Positions 3,165 through 16,789 of a stretch of DNA of 23,051 nt are shown piece by piece. The stretch lies in the NCBI GenBank assembly GCA_030632625.1, contig DAOVUK010000004.1, forward strand, positions 1-23,051. Reading direction: 5' to 3'. The notes under the pieces are model-generated. The model ran no database searches and had not been told where the DNA came from. It was given only the letters and a program-made list of their open reading frames with translations. The position numbers were made by a program, and so were the translations under genes. Origin of the DNA: Gammaproteobacteria bacterium (GTDB taxonomy: Bacteria > Pseudomonadota > Gammaproteobacteria > GRL18). The number at the start of each line of letters is the position of its first letter. Position 1 is the first letter of the stretch.

Positions 3165-4301
3165 ATGTTTAGACGCTTAAGTGGCACTTTTGTTCTAAGT
3201 ATTGGATTGCTATTGGGTGGGCAGGCTTTTTCCAGCGAAATTATTGAAGTCGGAGCACAGCAGGATTTAGAGCAGGTTTTTCTTGGTGGTAGTGTTGTTC
3301 CATACAAAGAAGTGACGCTCTCTGCGCAGATGCCCGGACGAGTAGAATACCTGGCCGGTGATGAAGGCGATTCCTTTGAAACGGGTGCTTTGCTGGTGAC
3401 TATCAGTGACGAAAGTTTACTGGCAAAGCGCAAATCAGCAATTGCTCAATATGATCAGGCTGTCGCCTCCCTGCAGAATTCTCAGGTTCAGTATAATCGT
3501 GAACTCTGGTCTCCGCAAAGTGAAAATGCTACTCAGATGCCTGGAATGGGAATGCCCGGTATGTTTGACCAGATGTTTACCAAACAGATGGGCGATTCAA
3601 TGGGCTATGGTGATAAGGATGTTCAACGTCAGGCGGATCTTTACAACCAGGGTGCTGCAGTCAACCAGGCTCAGTCGCGTGTAAGAAGTGCTCGGGAGGC
3701 TATTAATGAAATTAATGCCAGCATAAGAGACACTCGCTCAATAGCACCGTTCAAAGGTATGATCATTAAAAAACTGGTTGAAGTCGGTGACACGGTTCAG
3801 CCGGGAATGCCTTTAATTTCTTATGCAAATACAGATTACATTCGAATTCGCACAGAAGTGCCGGTGAGATTAGTGCCTTTTCTAAAAGTCGGTGATACTG
3901 TCAGGGCTTATCTGGATGTCAATGGCTTGATGATTCCTGCTAAAGTGGCTCAGATTTATCCCCTGGCTGATAAAAGCAAGCACACAGTGACAGTGAAATT
4001 TGATTTACCCATTGGTACTCGCGGCGTTCCCGGAATGTATGCTGAAGTAGCAATACCGGTTAAAAATTCAAAGCTCAACACATCTATTACTATTCCCAGA
4101 ACCAGTATTCTTAAACATATGGGCAGTTTACCCAGTGTCCTGGTAATGAATGACCAGAATATTGCTGAAATGCATGTCATTCGTCTGGGTAAAAAAGTCG
4201 ATGGCGGTAAATTTTATACGGTACTTTCCGGCCTGAAGTCAGGTGACCGGATTGTTGACCACCCACCTCAGAACTGGAGACCTGGTCTGCCGATAAAGTA
4301 A
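3165..4301 (+). CDS. RND efflux periplasmic adaptor (membrane fusion protein) with a Met-rich insert
   Basis: This 378-residue periplasmic adaptor should link the inner-membrane RND pump encoded next to it to an outer-membrane channel; no TolC-like gene is in the window. Residues 1-23 form a signal peptide (LSGTFVLSIGLLLGGQAFS). A lipoyl half-motif follows (VPYKEVTLSAQMPGRVEYLAGDEGD, split near 46-69), then a coiled-coil hairpin at about 85-185, the second lipoyl half (IRDTRSIAPFKGMIIKKL, VEVGDTVQPGMPL), a beta-barrel domain and a membrane-proximal domain ending near DRIVDHPP. Within the hairpin, residues 125-146 contain seven methionines (MPGMGMPGMFDQM...QMGDSM), which is unusual. The start follows AGAAAGG at a suitable distance. 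It lies 135 bases upstream of the permease and is likely in the same operon. Confidence 0.93.
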   Translation: MFRRLSGTFVLSIGLLLGGQAFSSEIIEVGAQQDLEQVFLGGSVVPYKEVTLSAQMPGRVEYLAGDEGDSFETGALLVTISDESLLAKRKSAIAQYDQAVASLQNSQVQYNRELWSPQSENATQMPGMGMPGMFDQMFTKQMGDSMGYGDKDVQRQADLYNQGAAVNQAQSRVRSAREAINEINASIRDTRSIAPFKGMIIKKLVEVGDTVQPGMPLISYANTDYIRIRTEVPVRLVPFLKVGDTVRAYLDVNGLMIPAKVAQIYPLADKSKHTVTVKFDLPIGTRGVPGMYAEVAIPVKNSKLNTSITIPRTSILKHMGSLPSVLVMNDQNIAEMHVIRLGKKVDGGKFYTVLSGLKSGDRIVDHPPQNWRPGLPIK

Positions 4302-4436
4302 TATTTCTGAGGCATTCTCTTTAATCTAAGGCGTACCGATCACTGTTCAGATAAAGGGGTGTACTGTCTCGTTAACAATGAGTCAAGTACAAACTGAGCA
4401 GAGTAATAATAAATAAGCACGGGTAAGTTTAATCAT

Positions 4437-7400
4437 ATGGATAACACAAAAAATAGACAAGATTTGGGTTTGGCTGGAAATCTGACTCAGACTTTTATGC
4501 ATTCGCCGTTAACCTTATTACTTCTGATTGCAACATTTGCTATTGGTCTTGCAGGTTTTATGTTGACCCCAAGGCAGGAAGATCCGCAAATATCAGTGCC
4601 TATGGCCGATATTTTTGTCAGTTATCCGGGTGCATCAACCGAGCAGGTTGCGTCACTGGTTGCTGTTCCTTTAGAGCGAATTATGAGTGAAATACCCGGT
4701 GTTAAGCATGTCTATTCTGCTTCTCAGCGGGATCAGGCCATGGTGACAGTGCAATTTGAAGTCGGTGAGGACATGGGGCCCTCACTGGTAAAGTTGTATG
4801 ACAAATTACAGTCCAATATGGATAAAATCCCACCAGGGGTTTCTCCGCCGCTGGTTAAGCCCAAAGGTGTTGATGATGTGCCGCTGGTGGCTTTGACTTT
4901 GTGGTCTGAAAGTCTTGATGATGCGGCCTTACGATTGATTGCACTGGATGTGATGCAGGAATTAAATGAAATTCCTGAAACCAGTCAAAGTTTTGTGATC
5001 AGTGGCCGTCAGGAACAGTTACGAATTGAAGTTAAGCCGGAACGTCTGGCGGGTTATGACATCACTCTGGAGCAGATTGCCGGTACTATTATGACGGCTA
5101 ATAGTGAAAAAACTGTTGGCTCTATTGAATCGGGCGACAATAGCTTTAATCTTTATACCGGCGCATTTTTACGCAATGCTGAAGATGTTGAACGCCTGGT
5201 GGTTGCCATGCATGATGGTAATCCTGTTTATGTAAGAGATGTTGCCGATGTAATTCATGGACCGGGTGAAGCACATAAGTTTGTTAATTTCTATACTGGT
5301 CCTGCTACTTCAGAAACTAAATCCGCAAATGGTTATCCTGCAGTGACATTGGCTATCGCTAAAAAAGTAGGCACCAATGGTGTGAGTGTTGTTGAAGAAG
5401 TTCTCGAGCGTGTTGATGCCATGAAAGGGCGTCTGATTCCAAGCAATGTGGAACTCAGCGTGACCCGAAATTATGGTAAATCAGCACAGGATAAAGTGAA
5501 CGGTCTGATGTTTAAACTGGTACTGGTGACAATTGCCGTATCAATACTTATCTTCTGGTTCCTTAACTGGCGTGCTGCTCTGGTTTGTTTTATTGTTATT
5601 CCAAATGTGATTCTTGTGACGACTTTCTTTGCATTGATCATGGGCTACACCATTGACCGGGTGAGTTTGTTTGCCCTCATTTTCTCCATTGGTATCCTGG
5701 TGGATGATGCCATTGTGGTGGTTGAAAATATGTATCGTCGCTGGGCGATGGATGGTGAAATTTCTGACAGCACGTCGATTGATGCCGTCAGAGAAGTAGG
5801 CAATCCAACTATTCTGGCAACCTTTACTGTAATTGCTGCTTTATTACCTATGGGTATGGTGCGAGGAATGATGGGGCCTTATATGGAACCTATTCCGGCT
5901 CTGGGTTCTGTGGCGATGATGTATTCATTGTTTGCCGCATTTGTGTTCACGCCTTATCTGGCCATTCGATTTAAACCGGCGATGGATTCTCTGCATAAAA
6001 TGGAAGAGTCTGAACATAAGACCGTAAAGCGTCTGGATGGTTTTTATCGCAGGATCCTTAATCCGCTTATTGACAGCAAAGTAGCTGGTTATGGTTTTTT
6101 AATCGGACTTTTTGCTATTTTCTTTCTCGCTAGCAGTTTGTTTTATTTTAAAGCGGTTAAAGTGAAAATGATGCCGCTTGATAATAAATCCGTTTTTAAT
6201 GTAGTGATTAACTTTCCTGAAGGGACTTCATTGCCGATAACCGCCAATCTGACCCGTCAAATGGCAGAAAAGGTAAGGCAGGTTCCTGAAGTCACTGCAA
6301 TTCAATCTTATGTTGGTACCGCATCACCTTTTGATTTTAATGGTCTTGTGCGTCATTATTACTTACGCCAGCAGCCCTGGCAGGCCGATTTAAATGTACA
6401 ATTACTGCATAAGAAAGAACGCGACAGAACCAGTCACCAGATAGCCCAGGAAGTCAGAAAAACCCTGACTGAATTGATTGCTGAAAAAGTAAAAGCAGGT
6501 GTTTATACCAAACTGGATGCGCCAAGAATCCAGATTGTGGAAATGCCGCCAGGTCCTCCTGTGCTGCAGTCAATGGTTGCTGAAGTTTATGGTCCGACCG
6601 CACATGAACGGCATGCAGTGGCAATGAAATTGACCAAATTATTTGAGCAGTCAGATTCTATTGCTGATGTGGATAATTATATTCAGAAACCTTATCAAAT
6701 CTGGAATTTCAGAGTCAATCGTGAGAAAGCCATTCGTGTGGGTGTCAGTGTTGACGCCATTAATAAAACATTAGAAATGGCCATGGGCGGTTTTGTTCTG
6801 GGCGATATTAAAGATGGCTCAATACTGGAAGCAACGATGATTGTGTTACAGGTGCCGCTGGATGTTCGTGCAAACTTTAATTACCTCAGCCAGCTGCCTG
6901 TTCCGACAATGCAGGGAAGTAGTGTGCCTCTGGCAGAATTGGGTGTCTTCAGTAAAGGTCATAAAGAAGCCGTTATCTATCATAAAGATTTAAGAGATGT
7001 TGAGTATGTTATTGGTGAGGTCGTGGGTGAATTTGCGGCACCCATTTACGGTATGTTTGACGTCTGGGATATGCTGGATCTGGAAGAAAATCTGGGACCG
7101 CGCAAAGAAGTGATAGAAGGCACCTGGATGGGACCACCGGGTTCATCTGACATGCACAGGCGCTCAGGTTTTGAATGGACCGGCGAATGGACGGTGACCT
7201 ATGAAACTTTCCGTGATATGGGCCTGGCTTTTTGCCTGGCTATTATTATGATTTATATGCTGGTTGTCTGGGAATTTGGTAATTTTATCCAGCCAGCCAT
7301 TATTATTTCTCCTATTCCTTTGACTCTGGTGGGGATTATTCCCGGGCATGCTATTATGGGTGCAGAATTTACGGCGACCTCAATGATCGGCTTTATTGCA

Positions 7401-8327
7401 CTGGCTGGAATTATTGTGCGTAACTCTATCTTGCTGATGGATTATTCTCGTCAGGAAATTCGCCGTGGTGTGGAAATCAGAGAAGCCATTATTATGGCCT
7501 GTATCACTCGAACACGACCTATTATTATTACCGCATTAGCGCTGCTAGTTGGTTCTACCGCGATTCTATTTGACCCAATCTTTCAGGGTATGGCAATTTC
7601 ACTGATGTATGGTACTTTTGTCTCGACCATTTTGACATTAGTTGTTATTCCCCTGGGATGTTATAGCGGGCGTGCTGCTTTTTGTGAAATTATGAAGGAA
7701 GACCACCCTGATTATCAGGTCTGTGTGGAGCAAAAAAATCAATTAAAAGATAAAAAATCTTCAGATGGCAGTGCTATAGGTAAAATTTTATTCACTTCTT
7801 ATACGGTTATTGTCACAGTTGTGCAAATGATCTGGTGGAGTCTGCAGGGGCTTTATACGCTTGCCTTTAAGAGAAGAAAAAAGCCTGCAGCTGCGCCTGA
7901 TTCTAATACGCCCGCTCCGGCTTCTAATACACCTGCTCCTGCGTCTAAAGCGCCTGAATCTAAATCAGCGGCTCAGCCGGAAGTGGTAAAGAGTGAGGCA
8001 TTAACTGCTGCAAAGACCGCAGCAAAGACTGCAGCAAAGACTGCAGCACCGGCTGCTGAAGCCGGGACAGAGGAAAAACCTGCAGCTGCTGAAACAAAAG
8101 CAGACATAAAGGCGGCAGATGTTGTAACAACATCTGATACGGCTGAAAAGGAAAAAAAGCCAGTGCTTAAGAAAAAGCCTGTTATCAAAAAAGCCATTGC
8201 GAAAAAGAAGGCGGTGAGCACTAATAAAGCAGGCACAGCGGATAATAAGCCTGTAAGTACTGTCAAGAAAGCGCTTAAAAAGAAAGGACGCCGGGGCATA
8301 CAGTTAAAAGGTGACCTGGAAGAGTAA
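4437..8327 (+). CDS. RND-family efflux permease with extra C-terminal hydrophobic segment and basic low-complexity tail
   Basis: The first ~1090 residues form a complete RND pump of the inner membrane, driven by proton import. An N-terminal helix is followed by the PRQEDP motif and a large periplasmic loop (FVSYPGASTEQVASLVAVPLE). TM4 carries the proton-relay pair D423-D424 (GILVDDAIVVVEN), and a second periplasmic loop follows. TM10 has R995 (IIVRNSILLMDY) where AcrB has K940; this variation also occurs elsewhere in the superfamily. After TM12 the protein is not finished. A further hydrophobic stretch at about 1115-1144 (ILFTSYTVIVTVVQMIWW...) is followed by 152 residues (1145-1296) rich in Lys, Ala, Pro, Thr and Glu. 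That tail includes SNTPAPA repeats, four TAAK/TAA units and a very basic end (KKALKKKGRRG). Substrate is unknown. The start at 4437 follows GGGTAAG. Confidence 0.92.
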   Translation: MDNTKNRQDLGLAGNLTQTFMHSPLTLLLLIATFAIGLAGFMLTPRQEDPQISVPMADIFVSYPGASTEQVASLVAVPLERIMSEIPGVKHVYSASQRDQAMVTVQFEVGEDMGPSLVKLYDKLQSNMDKIPPGVSPPLVKPKGVDDVPLVALTLWSESLDDAALRLIALDVMQELNEIPETSQSFVISGRQEQLRIEVKPERLAGYDITLEQIAGTIMTANSEKTVGSIESGDNSFNLYTGAFLRNAEDVERLVVAMHDGNPVYVRDVADVIHGPGEAHKFVNFYTGPATSETKSANGYPAVTLAIAKKVGTNGVSVVEEVLERVDAMKGRLIPSNVELSVTRNYGKSAQDKVNGLMFKLVLVTIAVSILIFWFLNWRAALVCFIVIPNVILVTTFFALIMGYTIDRVSLFALIFSIGILVDDAIVVVENMYRRWAMDGEISDSTSIDAVREVGNPTILATFTVIAALLPMGMVRGMMGPYMEPIPALGSVAMMYSLFAAFVFTPYLAIRFKPAMDSLHKMEESEHKTVKRLDGFYRRILNPLIDSKVAGYGFLIGLFAIFFLASSLFYFKAVKVKMMPLDNKSVFNVVINFPEGTSLPITANLTRQMAEKVRQVPEVTAIQSYVGTASPFDFNGLVRHYYLRQQPWQADLNVQLLHKKERDRTSHQIAQEVRKTLTELIAEKVKAGVYTKLDAPRIQIVEMPPGPPVLQSMVAEVYGPTAHERHAVAMKLTKLFEQSDSIADVDNYIQKPYQIWNFRVNREKAIRVGVSVDAINKTLEMAMGGFVLGDIKDGSILEATMIVLQVPLDVRANFNYLSQLPVPTMQGSSVPLAELGVFSKGHKEAVIYHKDLRDVEYVIGEVVGEFAAPIYGMFDVWDMLDLEENLGPRKEVIEGTWMGPPGSSDMHRRSGFEWTGEWTVTYETFRDMGLAFCLAIIMIYMLVVWEFGNFIQPAIIISPIPLTLVGIIPGHAIMGAEFTATSMIGFIALAGIIVRNSILLMDYSRQEIRRGVEIREAIIMACITRTRPIIITALALLVGSTAILFDPIFQGMAISLMYGTFVSTILTLVVIPLGCYSGRAAFCEIMKEDHPDYQVCVEQKNQLKDKKSSDGSAIGKILFTSYTVIVTVVQMIWWSLQGLYTLAFKRRKKPAAAPDSNTPAPASNTPAPASKAPESKSAAQPEVVKSEALTAAKTAAKTAAKTAAPAAEAGTEEKPAAAETKADIKAADVVTTSDTAEKEKKPVLKKKPVIKKAIAKKKAVSTNKAGTADNKPVSTVKKALKKKGRRGIQLKGDLEE

Positions 8328-8456: not shown

Positions 8457-8900
8457 ATGAAGTATGTAGCAACAGCGTTAGCAGCGGCAATGCTTGCAGG
8501 TGCAGTCATTATACCAATGCAGGCCAGTGCCTTTTGGGATGATGGCAATAGCAATACAAACTGGAATACTTATGGTAATAATAACTGGAATAACAGCGGT
8601 TATGGCCGCGGCAGCGGTAATGGCTGGGGTGATGGTTCCGGTGATGCTGACATGGATGGTGATATTGAAATCACCATAAAAACCAGAGCTCGAGGTCGCG
8701 GCAATGCCAATACACGTGGTTCTGCATCAGGCCGTGGTTATGGCAGTGGTTACAATAAATGGGATAATCGATTCCAGGGGTATGGTGATCAGCGTTATAT
8801 GAATAACCAGGGTTATGGTGGTTACAGACCATATGGCTATGCTCCTTATGCTCGTCCTCCTGTTGCTCCAGCCCCAACTCCGGCACCAGCAGCAAAATAA
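8457..8900 (+). CDS. Sulfur globule family-like secreted protein
   Basis: The 147-residue protein has a clear signal peptide (residues 1-25, MKYVATALAAAMLAGAV to QASA) cleaved before Phe-Trp. The mature part is low complexity and rich in Gly, Asn, Tyr, Trp and Arg (NTNWNTYGNNNWNNSGYGRG). It has an acidic stretch (GDGSGDADMDGDIEI) followed by RARGRGNANTRG and GYGSGY repeats, and ends in a Pro/Ala tail (PPVAPAPTPAPAAK). This order (AFW start, Gly/Asn/Trp block, D/G block, R-G block, Pro/Ala end) is what I know of the structural envelope proteins of bacterial sulfur globules. They are exported and coat periplasmic S0 deposits. Such compositions can converge, so another Gly-rich secreted protein is possible. 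It has its own probable promoter and a strong terminator after it. Confidence 0.7.
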   Translation: MKYVATALAAAMLAGAVIIPMQASAFWDDGNSNTNWNTYGNNNWNNSGYGRGSGNGWGDGSGDADMDGDIEITIKTRARGRGNANTRGSASGRGYGSGYNKWDNRFQGYGDQRYMNNQGYGGYRPYGYAPYARPPVAPAPTPAPAAK

Positions 8901-8917
8901 ATCATTAAACAAAAAAT

Positions 8918-8953
8918 GCTAGCGCCTGCAGCAAAAGGAGGCGTTAGCTTTTT
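8918..8953 (+). terminator. Rho-independent terminator after the sulfur globule-like gene
   Basis: GCTAGCGCCT (8918-8927) pairs with AGGCGTTAGC (8939-8948) with one mismatch, and TTTTT follows. It lies 18 bases after the stop codon and before the ribosome binding site of the ParA gene. Partial read-through would let the first gene be made in large excess over the downstream genes. Confidence 0.85.
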
Positions 8954-8971
8954 GATGGACAGGAGTTTTAA

Positions 8972-9592
8972 ATGATTACAGTGGTAGGTAACCTGAAGGG
9001 TGGTACGGGAAAAAGTACAGTCACTTTTAACCTGGCGGTCTGGCTGGCGTTAAATGATCATGAAGTACAACTATTTGACCTTGATCCCCAGGCAACTTTA
9101 AGTGATGTCGGTGATATTCGTGAAGAAGATGAATATGAGCCTCTTATATCTATCAGTAATTCAATTGACGAGTTAAAAAAAGCGCATAATGAAGAAGTGC
9201 TCATTGATGTCGGTACAGCGGATACTGATTCCATGAAGACGGCAATTTCTCTGACCGATCGCATTATTGTACCTGTACCTCCAAGCCAGGCTGATATCTG
9301 GTCAACACAGCGCTTTATAAAAATGGTTTTAGATATACGTGGTAAAAAAAATATGCCGCAAATGCTTGGTTTTGTTAACCGGGCTGATACCCATAAAGGT
9401 GTCCGGGAAACAGGTGAAGCAGAAGATGCTCTCAAGATGCTGCCTCATATAGATTTAATTGGTACTCGCTTATATCAAAGAACGACTTATCGACGCTCTT
9501 TCAGTGAAGGTCTGGCTGTATTTGAGCTAGAACCTAAAGGAAAAGCGGCGGCAGAAGTCAATAAGTTTGCCAGCATTGTGTATTCGGGATAA
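8972..9592 (+). CDS. ParA/MinD-type positioning ATPase
   Basis: The 206-residue protein is a small ParA-family P-loop ATPase without an N-terminal DNA-binding extension. The deviant Walker A KGGTGKST is at residues 9-16, including the signature lysine needed for ATP-sandwich dimers. Walker A' is LFDLDPQATLSD (34-45), Walker B is VLIDVGTAD (76-84), and IIVPVPPSQADIWS follows at about 98-111. Proteins of this size usually position cargo (plasmids, chemoreceptors, carboxysomes, flagella) through a nucleoid- or membrane-bound gradient. No ParB gene or parS-like repeats are nearby, so it is an orphan. Its neighbours suggest the cargo may be linked to sulfur globules or a membrane complex. AGGAG at 8961-8965 gives a well-placed start. 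Confidence 0.9.
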   Translation: MITVVGNLKGGTGKSTVTFNLAVWLALNDHEVQLFDLDPQATLSDVGDIREEDEYEPLISISNSIDELKKAHNEEVLIDVGTADTDSMKTAISLTDRIIVPVPPSQADIWSTQRFIKMVLDIRGKKNMPQMLGFVNRADTHKGVRETGEAEDALKMLPHIDLIGTRLYQRTTYRRSFSEGLAVFELEPKGKAAAEVNKFASIVYSG

Positions 9593-9659
9593 AAATTCCT
9601 GGAATTTAACCTCATACTAGTTGAGCAGGTATATTGTGGTAACATCAGTCGGACCGGAA

Positions 9660-10412
9660 ATGAAATTTTTTCGCTGGATACTCAGTCACTTGATGCTGAT
9701 TATCGTATTGTCACTGCTTATCTATGTCTATTGGAATAGAAGTGAAATTTGGTCTGAAGAAGCCTCTAGTGAACAGCTAAGTGAACCGGTGGCTATTGCC
9801 ATAGAAAACCCAAATAGAGCGGAAGTCGGTTCTTCAAGTGAAATTTATCAGCGTATGAAACGGTATAGAGAATCGCTTAGTGTAACAGAACGGGAAGTTA
9901 TGGATAAAGCCGCATCAACATTTCACCAGGTGTCCGATGATACTCTTAAATATCCTGTTGAAAGTGAAATAGAAGCTAAGCAGGAGAATCTGGAAAATAC
10001 TGAACAACATATACTGCCCGGGAAAGATGCTGCTGAACAAATTTCTGCTGTAGCAGTGAACAGCACACAACAAGTTATTGATGATAGTGCCAGGGAAGAA
10101 GTGATAATTGTCCATGAGGCTGAGACAGATGATTCACTGGAAAATGAATTAAATGAAGATTTTGAGGTGGTGATAAGTCAGTCTCCGACTTCATCAGCGC
10201 ATAATACTAAAGAGCATAGCACTGAAGCAAATAGCACTGAAGAAAATAGCTCTGAAGCGCAGACTAAAAGTCTACAACAACAGATACGAAACAGACAGAA
10301 ACAATTACAAAATCAGATGGTCATGTTGATACCCTTTGGTTCCGAAAGCAGTTCAGATGAAAATAGTTCTGATGAAAACAGTTCTGATGAAAATAAAGCG
10401 CAGCAGCAATAA
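9660..10412 (+). CDS. Single-span acidic membrane protein of unknown function
   Basis: I do not recognise a family. From the ATG at 9660 the protein has 250 residues. One transmembrane helix (about 5-25, ILSHLMLIIVLSLLIYVYW) follows a short basic start (MKFFR), so the rest should be outside the cytoplasm. The remainder is strongly acidic and rich in Ser, Glu, Gln and Asn, probably disordered. It contains two sets of tandem five-residue repeats (STEAN/STEEN/SSEAQ and SSDEN three times) and a Gln-rich segment between them (QQQIRNRQKQLQNQ). An upstream TTG at 9621 would add 13 residues, but it lacks a ribosome binding site, whereas GGA precedes 9660 at six bases. It lies 67 bases after the ParA gene and is likely in the same operon. 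A palindrome (AAATTCC-T-GGAATTT, 9593-9607) lies between them. Confidence 0.75.
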   Translation: MKFFRWILSHLMLIIVLSLLIYVYWNRSEIWSEEASSEQLSEPVAIAIENPNRAEVGSSSEIYQRMKRYRESLSVTEREVMDKAASTFHQVSDDTLKYPVESEIEAKQENLENTEQHILPGKDAAEQISAVAVNSTQQVIDDSAREEVIIVHEAETDDSLENELNEDFEVVISQSPTSSAHNTKEHSTEANSTEENSSEAQTKSLQQQIRNRQKQLQNQMVMLIPFGSESSSDENSSDENSSDENKAQQQ

Positions 10413-10710
10413 ACTAAAAATCCCAAGCCTGCTGAACAGCGAGGTCAGATAATTAAGAGGAAACGGGAAGAGACTAATATCCTAAATCACAAAAGGTTAG
10501 TAAGGAAGCCTGAGGTGAATAAGACTATAATTATAATAATAATACTGCATAATCCGCATAAAATGAATTGCTTTATTAGTAAATACTAATAAACTTAAAT
10601 AATAACTACCTATTGTGAGTAATTCATTTTACAATAGGTAGAGATAAAGTAATTTATGCTTTTTAAAAGATTGATTACTAAGGGGTGGTTAATGTTTAGG
10701 AGAGAAAAAA
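10413..10710. other. Intergenic region with two inverted repeats
   Basis: No gene is seen in these 298 bases. An eight-base inverted repeat (TATTAGTA-AA-TACTAATA, 10574-10591) is followed by a perfect eleven-base one (10606-10641, listed separately). A short GC-containing hairpin near 10427 (CCTGCTG/CAGCGAGG) has no T-tract. The region probably contains a promoter for the gene at 10711. Confidence 0.5.
10606..10641. promoter_or_regulatory. Perfect 11-base inverted repeat upstream of the coiled-coil gene
   Basis: CTACCTATTGT (10606-10616) and ACAATAGGTAG (10631-10641) are perfect reverse complements separated by 14 bases. It ends 69 bases before the start at 10711. There is no T-tract, so it is more likely an operator or a leader hairpin than a terminator. 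Confidence 0.45.
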
Positions 10711-11316
10711 ATGCCTATCAAAAGGTTATACCATAAACTGACAGCTGACGCAGATGCAACAGGTTTTGATTCAGATACGATTGATGAGCGTAGAAAAGGC
10801 TCTGATGTCAAAGGGCAGCGTCTACAGCTAATTGTTTATACCGCGTTATTTGCATTTATCGTATTAGCGGCTTACGGTTATTATCTGATTTTCAATCTGA
10901 CCCATGATGTCCATTCATTGTCTAATGATGTCAGGCAAATGACCCGTTCTGTAAATCAGATGTCGATGTCAGTCCATACCAATATGGAAATCATTGCCAA
11001 TAGTATTGTACAGATGCAGCGTAGTACCAGCTCAATGGCTGATACGGTTTCTCAGGCAATGCCTGAAATGGCTGCAAATACTACCACAATGACGGGAGTT
11101 GCGCAAAATGTTGGTGACCGTATTGATGGAATCAGTACCAATATCCAAACTATGAGTGTCGGCCTGGTTGCCATGCAGCGAGATATGTGGAGTATGAATA
11201 AAACGGTATCAAATCCAGCTGAAAGTATGTTTGACAGCATGACTCCATGGGGTAGTGGACGTAATAACTCTCGGGGTTCGCCAGGCCCATTGGCTTTTCC
11301 ACCGCCAGTACGTTAA
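10711..11316 (+). CDS. Single-span protein with Met/Ser-rich periplasmic coiled coil
   Basis: I do not recognise a named family. The 201 residues start with a basic and acidic cytoplasmic segment (about 1-37, including DERRKGSDVKGQR). One transmembrane helix follows (about 38-61, LQLIVYTALFAFIVLAAYGYY). A long helical region at about 65-165 has regular spacing of Val, Ile and Met (QMTRSVNQMSMSVHTNMEII...MQTMS-like runs) typical of a coiled coil and resembling chemoreceptor signalling helices. It ends in a Gly/Pro tail (SPGPLAFPPPVR). The positive-inside rule puts the coiled coil outside the cytoplasm. AGGAGAG six bases before the ATG fixes the start. It sits between the acidic single-span gene and the EHD-like GTPase, so a scaffold or linker role is plausible. 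Confidence 0.8.
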   Translation: MPIKRLYHKLTADADATGFDSDTIDERRKGSDVKGQRLQLIVYTALFAFIVLAAYGYYLIFNLTHDVHSLSNDVRQMTRSVNQMSMSVHTNMEIIANSIVQMQRSTSSMADTVSQAMPEMAANTTTMTGVAQNVGDRIDGISTNIQTMSVGLVAMQRDMWSMNKTVSNPAESMFDSMTPWGSGRNNSRGSPGPLAFPPPVR

Positions 11317-11360
11317 TATTAAAAATTATCGTCACTACTCAGCGTATTCATCTTTTACCA

Positions 11361-11374
11361 TCTCTATATAGAGA
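11361..11374. promoter_or_regulatory. 14-base perfect palindrome before the EHD-like gene
   Basis: TCTCTATATAGAGA is self-complementary and lies 21 bases before the start codon at 11396, just ahead of the GGAG ribosome binding site. It could be a protein-binding site or a small leader hairpin affecting translation. Confidence 0.3.
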
Positions 11375-11395
11375 GCAGCAGGAGCAGAAGTACCA

Positions 11396-12904
11396 ATGTT
11401 TGAAGGCCCGAGCACATTACTTAAATCAAGATTACAGAGCCTGCAGGATAATCTGGCGACAGAAAACCCAGTTCTGATAGATGCAGTCGATTCCTTTAAA
11501 GAACTGGATAAGGTGGCTTACCGTCTTGGGCTGCTGACTACCGATCAATCATTTGCCACTACTATTTCATGGTGGCCGCTCATTTCGGTGCTGGGTACTT
11601 TTTCTGCCGGCAAATCCTCTTTTCTGAACAGCTATCTTGATGTCAATCTGCAATTAACCGGTAATCAGGCGGTTGACGACAAATTTACGGTTATTTGCTA
11701 TAGCCAGGAAGACAAGGTGAGGGTTCTGCCTGGTCTGGCTCTTGATGCCGATCCACGTTTGCCGTTCTATCAAATCAGTGAAGATATAGAAAAAGTATCA
11801 GCTGGTGAAGGCAGTCGGATTGATACTTATTTGCAGCTTAAGACCTGCAAAAGTGATGTTTTAAAAGGCAAAATTCTTATCGATTCTCCTGGATTTGATG
11901 CTGACGAACAACGTAATGCGACCCTGAAAATTACTGATCATATTATTGATTTAGCCGATCTGGTTCTGGTCTTTTTTGATGCCAGGCATCCGGAACCCGG
12001 TGCCATGAAAGATACTCTGGAACATCTGGTTGAAGGGACTATTCGTCGTAATGACGCTGGAAAATTCCTGTTTATTCTCAATCAGATGGATTCCACTGCT
12101 AAAGAAGATAATGCCGAACAGGTCGTTGCAGCCTGGCAGCGGGCAGTGGTGCAGACCGGGCTTTCAACCGGCCGATTCTACTGTGTTTATAATGAAAAAG
12201 TAGCGCCTGAAATTCCTGATGAGTATCTAAGAAAACGATATAAAGATAAACTTGATATCGATATGGGTGAAATAGAACATCGTATGCAGGAAGTGAGTGT
12301 TGAACGGGTGTATCGAATTATCGGCGCTCTGGAAAATACTGCCAACCAGATTGAACAGCTTGCTGTGCCTAAAATTAAAGAAGCCATGGCTGCCTGGTAT
12401 CGCTCAGTTTTAATTACTGACGGCATACTCTATGGCTTATTAATTTCATTACTGCTTGGACTTTCAATTTATGCCGGTTATTGGACGGACTGGTCCTTTC
12501 AACCACCCTGGCTGGAATCACTTAAAACCAGCCCTGTGGTTCAGGGAGTCATTGTAGTTGTCTTTGTGGTGATTTTCGGAGGCATACATTTCTGGGTGCG
12601 TCGAATGATTGCCAGAAGAATTGTCAAAAAATTACCCACTGAAAATGGCCCGGGTAATATCGCCGCTGCTTTTATAAAAAATACTTATCCGCTGCGCAGT
12701 GTGTTTGCAATTAAACCGGCAGGATGGGGCAGAAGAGGTCATAGAGCCATTGAGCGGGTACGCAATGAAGCGGATAATTTTGTTAAATCACTTAACGATA
12801 ATTTTGCTGATCCATTAGGACGCAAAGAAGCTGAACGTCTGGCTGCAGAAGAGCAGCAGCGCAATAAAGAAGTTGCTCAACTGGCTGAAGAATCTGTTAG
12901 CTAG
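11396..12904 (+). CDS. EHD/dynamin-like GTPase with two membrane segments
   Basis: The 502-residue protein has the nucleotide-binding motifs of the dynamin superfamily: P-loop GTFSAGKS (67-74), DSPGFD (163-168) and NQMD (229-232). Other segments follow the EHD branch closely: VDDKFTVICY (like PTTDRFIAVM), RVLPGLALDADPRLPF (like GTVPGNALVVDPKKPF), and DLADLVLVFFDARHPEPG (like ERVDLIILLFDAHKLD). After a helical region come two hydrophobic segments, about 338-362 and 380-400, then about 100 mostly helical, charged residues. There is no EH domain. EHD proteins oligomerise on and bend membranes; here the anchoring is apparently by integral helices. The start has GGAG at 11381, a little far. It is the last gene of the co-directional set from 8457. 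EHD proteins use ATP, so the nucleotide is uncertain. Confidence 0.85.
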   Translation: MFEGPSTLLKSRLQSLQDNLATENPVLIDAVDSFKELDKVAYRLGLLTTDQSFATTISWWPLISVLGTFSAGKSSFLNSYLDVNLQLTGNQAVDDKFTVICYSQEDKVRVLPGLALDADPRLPFYQISEDIEKVSAGEGSRIDTYLQLKTCKSDVLKGKILIDSPGFDADEQRNATLKITDHIIDLADLVLVFFDARHPEPGAMKDTLEHLVEGTIRRNDAGKFLFILNQMDSTAKEDNAEQVVAAWQRAVVQTGLSTGRFYCVYNEKVAPEIPDEYLRKRYKDKLDIDMGEIEHRMQEVSVERVYRIIGALENTANQIEQLAVPKIKEAMAAWYRSVLITDGILYGLLISLLLGLSIYAGYWTDWSFQPPWLESLKTSPVVQGVIVVVFVVIFGGIHFWVRRMIARRIVKKLPTENGPGNIAAAFIKNTYPLRSVFAIKPAGWGRRGHRAIERVRNEADNFVKSLNDNFADPLGRKEAERLAAEEQQRNKEVAQLAEESVS

Positions 12905-12943
12905 TACCAGAACACATTAATTCTGATGCCTTGACAATTAAGA

Positions 12944-13030
12944 GTAGGTTGGCGCTGAGCTTGCGAAGCCCAACAATAACCGGCTAATCAGCATTATCTG
13001 TTGGGCTTCGCAAGCTCAGCGCCAACCTAC
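12944..13030. repeat. REPIN-like element: perfect 32-base inverted repeat
   Basis: Arms at 12944-12975 and 12999-13030 are exact reverse complements separated by 23 bases. Each arm begins with GTAG on its own strand (GTAGGTTGGCGCTGAGC, then TTGCGAAGCCCAACA) and each can also fold on itself through GTTGG/CCAAC and CGC/GCG. A GTAG tetranucleotide beside a small imperfect palindrome, in two inverted copies, is the architecture of REP doublets mobilised by RAYT enzymes. Confidence 0.75.
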
Positions 13031-13093
13031 ACTCTGAAAGAAGTCATCCTGTGCAGATGAATAGGCCATTAGCCAAACTAATAGTTTAAAACC

Positions 13094-13126
13094 AAAAAAG
13101 CGATGTATACACATCGCTTTTTTTTT
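13094..13126. terminator. Strong intrinsic terminator, likely bidirectional
   Basis: GCGATGT (13100-13106) pairs with ACATCGC (13111-13117) around ATAC. Nine T follow, and six A precede the stem, so it can act in both directions. It would end transcription of the cluster finishing at 12904. Confidence 0.85.
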
Positions 13127-13329
13127 GGCCATGGAAGGCCTTATACTGCGAAGCACAGGGATGTGCGAGAGCAGTGCTTGGCCATGGAAGGCCTTATGCT
13201 ACGAAGCGCAGGATAAGGTAGAGTACGAAACAAGTTTCTACTCTACCTAACACAGGGATGTGTACCCCAAGGGCACTTCCTGCGGGCGCGGAGCAGTGCT
13301 TGGCCATGGAAGGCCTTATACTGCGAAGC
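13125..13329. repeat. Direct-repeat array with a palindromic GGCCATGGAAGGCC core
   Basis: Three near-identical 30-base copies occur at 13125-13154, 13178-13207 and 13300-13329, each beginning TTGGCCATGGAAGGCCTTAT and ending CGAAGC. Copies 1 and 3 look identical; copy 2 has two changes. Copies 1 and 2 are 53 bases apart. Between copies 2 and 3 lies extra sequence with a perfect ten-base inverted repeat (AGGTAGAGTA at 13216-13225, TACTCTACCT at 13239-13248) and the small hairpin CACAGGGATGTG, which also occurs between copies 1 and 2. No coding sequence is present. Confidence 0.7.
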
Positions 13330-13390: not shown

Positions 13391-13774
13391 ATGAATTTTG
13401 AAAAAGTTTCTTTTGCTTTTTTTGTTGTTTTTGCTCTGACCATTAATTTTGGTTTTTTTATTGGTGATATTGATAACCCGGCGCATCATCATGTCTACGA
13501 ATTATTTGCTGCTATTGTTATCAGTCTGATAGCCACAGTCATTAAGTTGGGTGATCGTTCTCATATAGGTGCGGTATTATTAGCCACCAGTCTGGTGGCT
13601 GATATTCATCTGTTTGCTGCGGCAATTATCTGGGGGATTGCGGAGCATATGTTAGCTTCCGGGGTTAGCCCGGCGATTATGGCTACTATTGTTTCTGTTT
13701 CAGGGGGTGCTCTGATTGCTAATCTGACATCGGTTGTATTACTGGTGATTGAAACGGTTGTTGTACGGCGCTGA
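13391..13774 (+). CDS. Small four-span membrane protein (possibly DUF6394)
   Basis: The 127-residue protein is almost entirely hydrophobic, with helices at about 7-25, 36-53, 58-85 and 97-124. Features are a His cluster after the first helix (NPAHHHVYELF, 29-39), KLGDRSHIGAVLLATSLVADIHLF (split near 52-75) and a short basic end (VVVRR). I recall an uncharacterised family (DUF6394) of this size found beside TrkA-type channels, but cannot confirm membership. It is 64 bases upstream of the channel gene on the same strand, so they are probably co-transcribed. It may be a channel partner. A GGA nine bases before the ATG is a modest ribosome binding site. Confidence 0.75.
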   Translation: MNFEKVSFAFFVVFALTINFGFFIGDIDNPAHHHVYELFAAIVISLIATVIKLGDRSHIGAVLLATSLVADIHLFAAAIIWGIAEHMLASGVSPAIMATIVSVSGGALIANLTSVVLLVIETVVVRR

Positions 13775-13838
13775 ACTTTTTACTCCTGAGTGAAGTGAAA
13801 AAATCTTAAAACAAAAAACATAAAAGTAGCGTAATGTA

Positions 13839-15743
13839 ATGAATAGCTTTATTTTCTTACTGCTCAAACGGATCCGTTTGCCAATTATGCTGCTGATCAT
13901 CAGTTATGCAGTTGTCATATTGGGCTTTGTACTGATTCCCGGTCAGGATGATCAGGGAAATGTCTGGCATATGAGTTTTTTTCATGCCTTTTATTTTGTT
14001 AGTTTTATGGGATCGACTATTGGCTTTGGTGAAATCCCTTATGAATTTACTAATGCTCAGAGAATGTGGACGTTATTTGGTATTTATGCCACTGTGACTA
14101 TCTGGTTATACAGTATTGGCTCACTTATAAGTACCTTACAAAATCCTGCTTTTAAGAAAGTATTAAAAGAAAATGACTTTCGAAAAAAAGTAAGGCGCAT
14201 AAGAGAACCTTTTTATCTGATTTGTGGTTATGGTGATACAGGTAAATTACTGGCCCATGAATTATCTGAAAATCATATTTTATCAGTAGTCGTTGATATC
14301 GATCCGGTTCGTATTGATAGTCTTGAAATTGATGAACCCGATATCGATATTCCTGCTCTGGCTGCCAATGCTTCCTTCCCGCAGGTTCTTGAAACTGCAG
14401 GCCTGACTCATGAATATTGTCAGGGAGTCATTGCTTTAGCCAATAAAGATGAAGTTAATCTGAAAATTGCCATTACCGCACGCTTATTGAATAAAGAACG
14501 AATGTTAGATGATCATCTTATGGTGGTTTGCCGGGCAGAAACCGCCGAAGCTGAAGCCAATATGGCTTCTTTTGGAACAACCCACATTATTAATCCTTTT
14601 GAAATTTATGCCAGACGACTCGCCTTATCTGTCCGTTCTCCCAGTGCTTATCTGATTTATGAATGGCTGACAAACCCCTATCATAAAGTGAGAAATGAAC
14701 CAATTAAGCCGCCAAAAGGCATTTGGGTTATCTGTGGTTACGGACGCTTCGGCAAAGCGGTATCAAGGCACTTAAATTATATCGGCATAAGAACTGTTAT
14801 CATTGAAGCGTCTCCTGAAATAACTAACCCGCCTGAGGGTACAATTACCGGAAGAGGGACAGAAGCTGTTACTTTACGTGAAGCTAAAATTACCGAAGCC
14901 GCGGCCATTGTGGCAGGTACGGATAATGATGCCAATAATTTATCCATTGTCATTACGGCTCAGGATGAAATGAAACGTTATCATCGAGGGAAAAAACGCG
15001 ACCAGGAAGACAATGAAAAATATGCTTTAAAAGGTTTTATGGAAAAAAATGATCTTGAGTTGCAGCCTGAGACAGATGAACTGCAGGAAGTTAAATTGTT
15101 TTCTATTGCCAGACAAAATTTTAGCCGCAATGAGACGGTATTTGAAAAAGCAGAACTGGATTTTATTATGCAGCCGGCAAGTATCGTTGCGGGTGAAATT
15201 CTTTCAATTATAAAAACACCCTTGTTATCTACATTTCTATCATTAGCCAGACGACAAAAAGATCAATGGGCTAATCTCCTGATCAGTCGACTCAGCAGCT
15301 TTATTGATAATACTGCAATGACCTGGATGGTTGAAATTTCTGAAAAGCAAACGCCTGCCGTGATGTGTTTTCTAAAAAAAGGTAAAATTACCACTGAACA
15401 AATTTTAAGACATCCCAGAAACAGGGATAAACCCTTGAAATGTGTTGTCTTATTAGCACATCGAAAAAAAAGCAAAGCATCATTACATCGTCATGAAATG
15501 TCAAACAGGAGTTCATCAACAAAATTTGATAATTTTTTATTGCCGGATAAAGATTTTGAAATAAATGAAGGTGATCAGTTGTTGATTTGTGGTGATAAAG
15601 AAAGCATGCACTTAATGTGCTGGTCTGTCAGCAATATTAATATCTACACTTACATTCATACCGGTTACGAATTAGCCGGTGGTTATATTTGGCAGTGGTT
15701 CTACAAACATAAACTTTTACAGCAAGAGAATAAAACAGGATGA
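13839..15743 (+). CDS. Two-pore-helix potassium channel-like protein with two TrkA-N (RCK) domains
   Basis: The 634 residues begin with two transmembrane helices (about 13-33 and 78-100) around a pore loop. The selectivity-filter position reads TIGFGE (60-65), where most K+ channels have TVGYGD. Two cytoplasmic Rossmann-type RCK domains follow: GYGDTG at 130-135 with VVDIDP downstream, and GYGRFG at 300-305 with VIIEASPE. Each should bind a nucleotide or ligand and gate the pore. A highly charged linker (about 378-420, HRGKKRDQEDNEKY) follows the second Rossmann part. The C-terminal region ends in a segment typical of a TrkA-C-like domain (FEINEGDQLLICGDKESM). The last bases overlap the next gene by ATGA, so translation is coupled. 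A K+ flux role is probable; ion preference is not certain given the filter. Confidence 0.88.
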   Translation: MNSFIFLLLKRIRLPIMLLIISYAVVILGFVLIPGQDDQGNVWHMSFFHAFYFVSFMGSTIGFGEIPYEFTNAQRMWTLFGIYATVTIWLYSIGSLISTLQNPAFKKVLKENDFRKKVRRIREPFYLICGYGDTGKLLAHELSENHILSVVVDIDPVRIDSLEIDEPDIDIPALAANASFPQVLETAGLTHEYCQGVIALANKDEVNLKIAITARLLNKERMLDDHLMVVCRAETAEAEANMASFGTTHIINPFEIYARRLALSVRSPSAYLIYEWLTNPYHKVRNEPIKPPKGIWVICGYGRFGKAVSRHLNYIGIRTVIIEASPEITNPPEGTITGRGTEAVTLREAKITEAAAIVAGTDNDANNLSIVITAQDEMKRYHRGKKRDQEDNEKYALKGFMEKNDLELQPETDELQEVKLFSIARQNFSRNETVFEKAELDFIMQPASIVAGEILSIIKTPLLSTFLSLARRQKDQWANLLISRLSSFIDNTAMTWMVEISEKQTPAVMCFLKKGKITTEQILRHPRNRDKPLKCVVLLAHRKKSKASLHRHEMSNRSSSTKFDNFLLPDKDFEINEGDQLLICGDKESMHLMCWSVSNINIYTYIHTGYELAGGYIWQWFYKHKLLQQENKTG

Positions 15744-16789
15744 AGTGTTTCATATTACAGCAGCAGAATAAAAATGGAATATCTTCAAAAAATAATATCT
15801 TATTAATGATTATATTTGTTGCCCCATTGTTGTTAATATTGTTGTTCACAATGCCTGTCTATGCACAAAGCAGCTACCTTTTTCCCAGTGATATCATTGA
15901 TCAAGCTGAGCAGTCCCAATATGATGTGGGACGTGTAAACCGTTATGCAAGCCAGCGAAAGTGGATCTATCCTGAAGACACACAAACCGAATGGCCATAT
16001 GCTCCTGAACAGGCTAATCCGCTTATTCAATTTTCAAGAGAATTTCACTATCCAGGGGAAAACTATGTTAAGCAGCCTGGCGGCCATAATTTTCAGCGGG
16101 AAATAAAAAAAGATTTTGTACCCCAGGCTGAATACATGTACCAGAGAAAATATATTCAGTCCAATCCAGGTTTGCTTTACCCCAGTGATATGGAAGTCAA
16201 TAGACGCTCAATTAACAAAAACTCATATAGCCCCAATTCATTTAGTTCGAATATTTCGCGCCCAGGCTCTTTCCCGGCAAACTCTTTCCCCACAAAAAAG
16301 GATTACGACAGACAAGCAGGGCAGGCAAGGCAAAACACCCGGATTCAATATGTTCCGGTGCCGGTTTATAGTGTTCCCGGTACTTTGCCGGGCACAGTTC
16401 CCGGTGTGGTGACTCCTGGAAAAATGGTGCCGGGCTATAGCCATCTTAGTCCTGATTATAATTATGGTGGTCTAAGCTCAGGTTTTCCAAGATCGGGTTT
16501 TCCAAGATCTGGTTTTCCAGGCTCAGGTTTGCCAAGATCTGGTTTATTTTCTGGCTTACAGGATCAGAGGCTGTTTAATTGGAGAGGTTTGAATAATAGT
16601 GGTATAAGTCCTTTTCTGGGACCTCAATATAACCCCATGACAGGGCTTGGAATTTTTCCTGGAGGCAGTAATTTGTCTGATACATTTTATAAGAGCTATG
16701 ATGACCATTCACAAAATACCAGTCCCTTTGCCAGCCCGGATACTATGGTTCCAGGCTTTTCTATGCCGGATATGTATGCCCCGCACTAA
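15740..16789 (+). CDS. Secreted Pro/Gly/Tyr-rich protein of unknown function, coupled to the channel gene
   Basis: I do not recognise a family. The 349 residues start with an unusually long N-region and a hydrophobic core (about 22-40, LMIIFVAPLLLILLFTMPV), with probable cleavage after VYA (42). The mature protein is rich in Pro, Gly, Ser, Tyr and Asn. It carries a recurring motif (LFPSD, IYPED, LLYPSD) in the first half and tandem repeats in the second half (SGFPRSGFPRSGFPGSGLPR), preceded by PVPVYSVPGTLPGTVPG. Cysteine is absent after the signal peptide. The ATGA overlap with the channel stop indicates coupled expression; a later Met at 15806 would also keep the signal peptide. Such sequences suit an extracellular or periplasmic structural protein. 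Confidence 0.75.
   Translation: MKCFILQQQNKNGISSKNNILLMIIFVAPLLLILLFTMPVYAQSSYLFPSDIIDQAEQSQYDVGRVNRYASQRKWIYPEDTQTEWPYAPEQANPLIQFSREFHYPGENYVKQPGGHNFQREIKKDFVPQAEYMYQRKYIQSNPGLLYPSDMEVNRRSINKNSYSPNSFSSNISRPGSFPANSFPTKKDYDRQAGQARQNTRIQYVPVPVYSVPGTLPGTVPGVVTPGKMVPGYSHLSPDYNYGGLSSGFPRSGFPRSGFPGSGLPRSGLFSGLQDQRLFNWRGLNNSGISPFLGPQYNPMTGLGIFPGGSNLSDTFYKSYDDHSQNTSPFASPDTMVPGFSMPDMYAPH

Follow-up and report, generated by a model that had tools for sequence, protein, structure and literature searches.

Partners of ParA/MinD ATPases bind these enzymes through a charged, disordered N terminus, according to the available part of a published account (PMC10241942), and for McdB, the partner in the carboxysome-positioning system McdAB, the available text of a preprint describes a short basic N terminus that is both needed and sufficient (PMC12204374). 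The accessible portion of a 2025 review of organelle positioning deals with carboxysomes, magnetosomes, polyhydroxybutyrate, and polyphosphate, and the word sulfur is absent from its main text (PMC13052382). For sulfur globules, the available part of the work on Allochromatium vinosum reports mutants that concern coat proteins and notes that sgpD adjoins a gene for a hydrophobic/amphiphilic exporter (PMC10386293). One sulfur globule paper mentions dynamin, stating in its accessible part that the genomes it covers lack dynamin, and we found no open-access paper that joins sulfur globules with ParA. Here we describe a locus in a 23,051-nucleotide stretch of contig DAOVUK010000004.1 (assembly GCA_030632625.1) from a member of the Gammaproteobacteria, referred to as the window, which encodes a resistance-nodulation-cell division (RND) pump, a sulfur globule protein, and a ParA-type ATPase. 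The new element, as judged by comparison of related loci, is a long basic tail on the pump that ends in RRGI(R/Q/K)LK; this motif and ParA are either both there or both missing. We infer that the locus works in the manner of ParA-type cargo positioning, although searches of the open-access literature gave no description of a system so composed and so arranged across the membrane.

The locus resembles McdAB in having an orphan-type ParA, with no ParB seen, next to genes that serve a storage or metabolic structure, and its tail motif, as a candidate partner peptide, would parallel the short basic terminal peptide of the McdAB partner, as far as the available preprint text describes that peptide (PMC12204374). 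It differs in that a periplasmic cargo and a partner formed by the C-terminal tail of a pump in the membrane are proposed; no relative of McdB was noticed here, and none was searched for. The tail likewise resembles the basic ends of ParA partners in the accessible accounts but is C-terminal and sits on a membrane protein. ParF, of the ParF-ParG system of plasmid TP228, is the nearest solved relative of the window ParA (profile search of the PDB, E 1.6e-13), whereas the gene described here is chromosomal and lies in a conserved pump neighborhood in which neither ParG nor a centromere was seen. The window globule protein belongs to the same Pfam SGP family as SgpA-D of A. vinosum, and the reported adjacency of sgpD and an exporter gene agrees with the link to an RND pump, that exporter being a possible counterpart of the window pump; the available part of the A. 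vinosum account mentions no ParA, tail motif, or nucleoside triphosphatase (NTPase) (PMC10386293). With AcrB-type permeases the pump shares an ACR_tran domain and an adaptor partner, but it falls below every listed NCBIfam cut-off for RND permeases (best 436.2 versus 1250 bits), has no evident gene for an outer-membrane factor next to it, and carries the long basic tail. The NTPase of the locus is nearest to EHD4 of the EHD and bacterial dynamin-like proteins in both sequence profile and fold but differs in lacking an EH domain, in having a hydrophobic hairpin, and in being linked to a sulfur globule locus. PhaF and AlgP, in the accessible text of the review, provide the idea of a basic tail tying a storage body to DNA, although they concern cytoplasmic granules and involve neither ParA nor a pump (PMC13052382).

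The initial annotation had described a five-gene cluster running from the globule protein gene to the NTPase gene. Its five consecutive plus-strand open reading frames (ORFs) do exist (Table 1), the first bitopic protein starting at an internal ATG (9660) of the ORF that opens at 9621, but the interval is too narrow, since it omits the adaptor and RND genes (3165-8327). Comparison of related loci identifies the conserved unit as the adaptor, the RND pump, the sulfur globule protein, ParA, two bitopic proteins, and the EHD-like NTPase. An RND gene lies upstream of parA in all 21 loci L031-L051, 19 of them continue with the genes for bitopic protein 2 and the NTPase (the other two contigs end first), and the adaptor adjoins the pump in related loci whose contigs reach that far. 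In Thiodictyon and Chromatiaceae loci (L052, L053, and L055) the adaptor, RND pump, ParA, and bitopic protein 2 are retained, the NTPase gene of L052 and L053 being divergent and upstream, and L054 retains the adaptor, RND pump, and ParA. The pump is therefore the most constant neighbor of ParA, because the 21 loci and L052-L055 all keep the two together. The pump-ParA linkage also occurs in distant families and in Magnetococcales; because the cluster recurs in many families, its assembly is more than chance.

The Lys/Ala/Pro-rich tail, which we take to resemble the tails of PhaF and AlgP in composition, extends from 128 to 352 residues in the 53 pumps from ParA-positive genomes that have an unbroken frame, and pump tails terminate in RRGI(R/Q/K)LK. 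A scan of six-frame ORFs of at least 60 residues from 85 loci (813,108 residues) returned 62 occurrences of RGI[RKQ]L[KN], all at the C terminus of an RND protein or of a short RND-tail-like ORF, and the short ORFs sit at contig ends or frame breaks. RND relatives were sought in 40 chosen genomes and in 66 further ParA-negative sulfur oxidizers, tails being read at 1250 bits or more, and 70 RND proteins were scored for the motif, 55 from ParA-positive genomes and 15 from genomes in which no ParA was found. All 55 of the 55 scored pumps from ParA-positive genomes carry the motif, in a slightly altered form in some (KGIRLK in G153, RGIRLN in G275 and G311, RGIRIK in G305, RGIRLR in G440, and RGIRAD in G230); in two of these genomes (G016 and G079) a break in the RND frame ahead of the tail leaves the motif-bearing tail as a separate ORF (L065:7874-8142 and L111:8221-8541). 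Thirteen of the other 15 pumps lack the motif; the pump of G111 bears it on a contig that stops just past the pump, and the contig of G185 ends inside the tail. Ten further RND copies were fetched as a paralog check. The genome from which the window derives has a second, tailless RND protein with an adaptor (G000:C157:1104-4319, L254), 57% identical to the window RND.

Sixty-four of the scored pumps are comparable (55 ParA-positive, 9 ParA-negative); those of G363, G131, G247, and G345 were left out because they group with tailless paralogs of ParA-positive genomes. Among the comparable pumps the motif is present in 55/55 with ParA versus 0/9 without (Fisher p 4e-11 without correction for relatedness). 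On the RND tree, ParA and the motif each change five times, at the same places, and the independent pairs that lie on supported branches are concordant in 5/5 cases (sign test p 0.0625, the minimum that five pairs allow). Both states occur within families f75 (G097 and G326) and f141 (G275 and G163). The nine ParA-negative clusters come from five family codes (G103, G227, and G330; G124, G240, and G339; G200; G326; G163), and no ParA ortholog came up when their genomes were profile-searched a second time (best match 83 bits). In all nine, the adaptor and bitopic protein 2 are encoded beside the pump. Five (G103, G227, G330, G200, and G326) also retain the NTPase, so that adaptor, motif-less RND, bitopic protein 2, and NTPase lie together with no ParA between them; G240, G124, G339, and G163 retain the adaptor, RND, and bitopic protein 2, and the pump of G163 still has a long tail, the end of which is degenerate. 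ORFs resembling bitopic protein 1 are found in the clusters of G103, G227, G200, G326, and G240. The adaptor, pump, bitopic proteins, and NTPase are thus independent of ParA, and the motif is not, because the ParA-negative clusters keep the proteins and lose the motif. The motif is also more than a linked marker, since it is kept in seven ParA-positive genomes in which no pump gene lies within the ParA stretch (G038, G055, G107, G199, G253, G305 with the variant, and G350). Earlier, the bitopic proteins had been supposed to link ParA to its cargo, a proposal at odds with their persistence where ParA is missing; it is therefore likely that the pump tail, in place of the bitopic proteins, forms the contact with ParA.

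By profile match the window ATPase is of the ParA/CbiA type, as initially annotated, with the sequence KGGTGKST, and the deviant Walker A motif with its signature lysine (Lys9, Gly10, Gly11, Gly13, Lys14, Ser15, and Thr16) is invariant in 13/13 orthologs. Arg50, Glu52, and Pro57 are among the residues outside the ATP site that are invariant in the same 13 and are candidate partner contacts. An ortholog with 66-100% identity was found in all 24 genomes of family code f1 (the source genome included) and one with 54-59% identity in 3 of the 33 class-level genomes that completed a first search of 57. In a set of 350 gammaproteobacterial genomes, profile-searched for ParA, dsrA, soxB, and Pfam SGP, 62 genomes from 32 family codes have the ortholog, the lowest ortholog scoring 187 bits and the next match 115 bits. 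A phylum sample of 219 genomes gave 38 with the ortholog, 37 of them outside the Gammaproteobacteria; stretches were fetched for 15 positives outside the class, and 11 of these are Magnetococcales, including G374, which is Magnetococcus marinus MC-1. With neighbors that recur across families and in Magnetococcales, the cluster is conserved beyond the strain.

The globule protein assignment made from the window alone holds, and the association with sulfur oxidation that it would predict is seen over this larger sample. The protein encoded upstream of parA is a member of the sulfur globule protein family, and relatives adjoin parA in distant families. Of the 350 genomes, 106 have dsrA over the cut-off (113 if partial matches are counted) and 139 have soxB (141 if they are counted); one or the other is found in 61/62 ParA-positive genomes versus 94/288 others (Fisher p 3e-24, relatedness not corrected). 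The sole ParA-positive genome with neither over threshold, G017, has SGP matches. Among the 15 other-class genomes (largely Magnetococcales), dsrA is over the cut-off in 13. Pfam SGP matches occur in 53/350 genomes, comprising 48/62 with ParA versus 5/288 without (G103, G111, G163, G227, and G363), and a match lies no more than 5 kb from parA in at least 16 of the 62 ParA-positive genomes, falling short of the family cut-off in 4 of them, and in 3/3 other-class genomes having SGP matches. When SGP-like ORFs were defined by our own criteria (an export signal and a Gly/Trp/Tyr/Asn-rich body), one lay within 5 kb upstream of parA in 26/59 gammaproteobacterial loci outside f1, 12/19 f1 loci, 11/15 other-class loci, and 0/5 loci of the lowest-scoring ParA group. 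With the remainder of the fetched loci as background, the counts are 31 in 239 kb upstream versus 1 in 681 kb elsewhere for the 59 loci, 12 in 92 kb versus 0 in 198 kb for f1, and 21 in 66 kb versus 2 in 197 kb for the other class. The link of the ParA cluster to sulfur globules is well supported by these gene distributions. The globule protein was also considered as the constant partner of ParA and was rejected in that role, as SGP-like genes are often not beside parA and the pump is constant instead. Exported Pro/Tyr/Trp-rich proteins are encoded between pump and SGP genes in many loci. A further exported protein lies between pump and parA in M. marinus (L195:6311-6943) and Thiodictyon (L052:9062-9889, with a weak DUF4412 match), and an exported Pro/Tyr/Gly-rich protein at 15740-16789 of the window, with counterparts of 26-55% identity downstream in f1 relatives, may be another globule-type protein.

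The locus appears to be a sulfur globule locus of sulfur oxidizers that includes a ParA-type spatial organizer, the positioning itself being what we infer. The pump tail would lie in the cytoplasm and serve as the partner peptide of ParA, as basic ends do in other partners of ParA. On the nucleoid, ATP-bound ParA would capture the tail, and contact would lead to ATP hydrolysis and release; the resulting spacing of pump-adaptor complexes would be passed through the membrane to the assembly sites of periplasmic globules, which would thereby spread along the cell and be divided between the daughter cells. Shaping of a membrane pocket around the globule would fall to the bitopic proteins together with the EHD-like NTPase. 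That nucleoid-bound ParA grips the pump tail and thereby distributes the assembly sites is the likeliest of the mechanisms considered and seems to us to have an even chance of being right. The full proposal, in which periplasmic globules are placed and partitioned across the membrane by ParA acting through a pump peptide while the NTPase molds the pocket, in sulfur-oxidizing Gammaproteobacteria and magnetotactic cocci, with ParA and peptide lost together about five times, is offered tentatively, at somewhat under even chances.

Several observations weigh against this proposal. The basic partner ends in the accessible parts of the cited papers are N-terminal, and the pump motif is C-terminal. 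The independent losses number only five, with the sign test at p 0.0625. Motif-less, tailless RND paralogs are present in ParA-positive genomes (C157 of G000; C30 and C49 of G038), so that the motif marks only the cluster-type copy of the pump. A hydrophobic stretch precedes the basic part in 31/55 tails from ParA-positive genomes and, if membrane-spanning, could form a thirteenth transmembrane helix that would place the motif in the periplasm; the stretch is absent from 24/55 (one from a broken frame), with the motif still present. The lowest-scoring ParA group (5/62 genomes, 188-207 bits, families f85 and f116) has none of the neighbors in the fetched stretch. No ParA ortholog is present in 94 of the sulfur-oxidizer genomes, Pfam SGP occurs in just 3 of the 15 other-class genomes, and an SGP-like gene is missing upstream of parA in 33/59 gammaproteobacterial loci outside f1, 7/19 f1 loci, and 4/15 other-class loci, some of these loci being cut by contig ends.

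Since the tightest coupling is that of ParA with the pump tail, ParA might position the RND pump for the pump's own purpose, such as sulfide defense or export at a chosen site, with the globule proteins as co-regulated passengers. SGP genes are often not beside parA, and some genomes have pump and adaptor without SGP-like neighbors, as this explanation would have it; SGP genes are nevertheless concentrated at the locus and track ParA over genomes, and pump and SGP remain neighbors without ParA in G103, where an SGP-like ORF is in the cluster, and in G227, where an SGP gene lies beside the pump. We regard pump positioning for its own sake as unlikely. ParA could alternatively be an ATP-dependent switch or assembly factor that gates the pump through its tail, a role for which BcsQ, the ParA-like protein of cellulose synthesis, provides a comparison. 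The joint appearance and disappearance of ParA and motif, with a transporter as the partner, would suit a switch, whereas the solved ATPases closest to this ParA (ParF, McdA, Soj, and MipZ) serve partition or positioning and the length of the tail presumably exceeds what a simple switch would need, which makes gating quite unlikely.

The association with sulfur oxidation might instead be an inherited coincidence, the cluster having some general role in these lineages. The dsrA and soxB counts carry no correction for relatedness, G017 has the ParA ortholog with neither gene over threshold, and 2 of the 15 other-class genomes lack dsrA, the only one of the two genes searched there; set against this, globule genes lie physically within the locus in two classes, and G017 itself has SGP matches. 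Coincidence of this kind we consider very unlikely. It is extremely improbable that parA is a plasmid- or chromosome-partition gene that lies here by chance. The protein does resemble type Ib ParA proteins such as ParF, and among the 120 relatives listed any name given by a source is either chromosome partitioning protein or AAA family ATPase, but the ortholog group is distinct from other ParA matches in the same genomes and has a conserved context with the pump, and inspection revealed no ParB-like gene beside parA among the window ORFs, although no ParB profile search was made. A plain partition protein was rejected on gene context, ortholog grouping, and a score below the cut-off of NCBIfam ParA_partition NF041546 (129.8 versus 180 bits).

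Table 1. Features of the window that belong to the ParA-pump locus
Feature	Position	Strand	Basis or remark
RND periplasmic adaptor (HlyD/MFP family)	3165..4301	+	NCBIfam RND_mfp TIGR01730, 148 bits (cut-off 94.9)
RND permease, 1296 residues, with C-terminal tail beyond residue ~1076	4437..8327	+	Pfam ACR_tran, 487.6 bits (cut-off 28)
RND C-terminal tail, 220 residues	7665..8324	+	Lys/Ala/Pro-rich, net charge +18, hydrophobic stretch near start
RRGIQLK tail motif, proposed ParA contact	8289..8309	+	Sequence comparison of pump tails
Sulfur globule protein, exported, Gly/Asn/Tyr-rich	8457..8900	+	Pfam SGP PF17228, 32.2 bits (cut-off 26.7)
Hairpin followed by U run in sgp-parA spacer, possible partial terminator	8918..8953	+	Folding z -3.8
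ParA-type ATPase, KGGTGKST	8972..9592	+	Profile match and ortholog alignment
Bitopic protein 1, one membrane span, acidic repeats	9660..10412	+	Poorly conserved past its start
Bitopic protein 2, one span, Met-rich coiled-coil-like C terminus	10711..11316	+	Conserved across families
EHD-like dynamin-superfamily NTPase with hydrophobic hairpin	11396..12904	+	Pfam Dynamin_N, 56.4 bits (cut-off 27)

Each bitopic protein has, by inspection, one strong hydrophobic segment, and topology rules predict that both C termini are periplasmic. Allochromatium palmeri is among the organisms named as carrying a relative of bitopic protein 2. Between parA and the gene for bitopic protein 2, many families have an ORF for a single-span protein, which in the one copy tested (L065:10232-10822) has a DUF302 domain. 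The EHD-like character of the NTPase, proposed from the window sequence, is borne out by its Dynamin_N match and by a profile search that finds EHD4 in the PDB (E 8.6e-6). In a Foldseek search with an AlphaFold model (mean predicted local distance difference test score 82.6), EHD4 and EHD2 chains take ranks 1 to 4, with modest template modeling scores of 0.36-0.47 by query length and 0.37-0.60 by target length. A Pfam scan revealed no EF-hand or EH domain, and none of the 15 other-class loci yielded an NTPase.

The hairpin between sgp and parA may raise the level of globule protein over that of ParA. The 5/5 spacers of f1 loci that were folded give strong, differing hairpins (z -3.4 to -6.2), and the window hairpin is absent from the list produced by the terminator scan of the window. 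Window-wide scans gave 17 promoter-like sites versus 24.3 in shuffled sequences and 13 terminator-like sites versus 8.2. Downstream of the NTPase gene, a DUF6394 gene and a TrkA-N/ion-channel gene (13391-15743) follow, as they do in most f1 loci, in G018, and in the loci L031-L051 where contigs reach; a 35-nucleotide inverted repeat (97% complementary) and three 39-nucleotide direct repeats (12941-13329) separate the NTPase and DUF6394 genes. Upstream of the adaptor, on the minus strand, is a gene for an MIF-type tautomerase (2065-2409) that is also present in many f1 loci.

These results name a conserved multi-gene locus that bears on the placement and sharing of periplasmic sulfur globules, and its occurrence in M. 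marinus MC-1 ties the system to a second bacterial class. The orphan ParA group gains a candidate partner peptide, for which the natural losses of ParA serve as controls. If the proposal is true, ParA-type positioning, known for cytoplasmic cargos in the accessible parts of the papers cited, would reach a cargo on the other side of a membrane.

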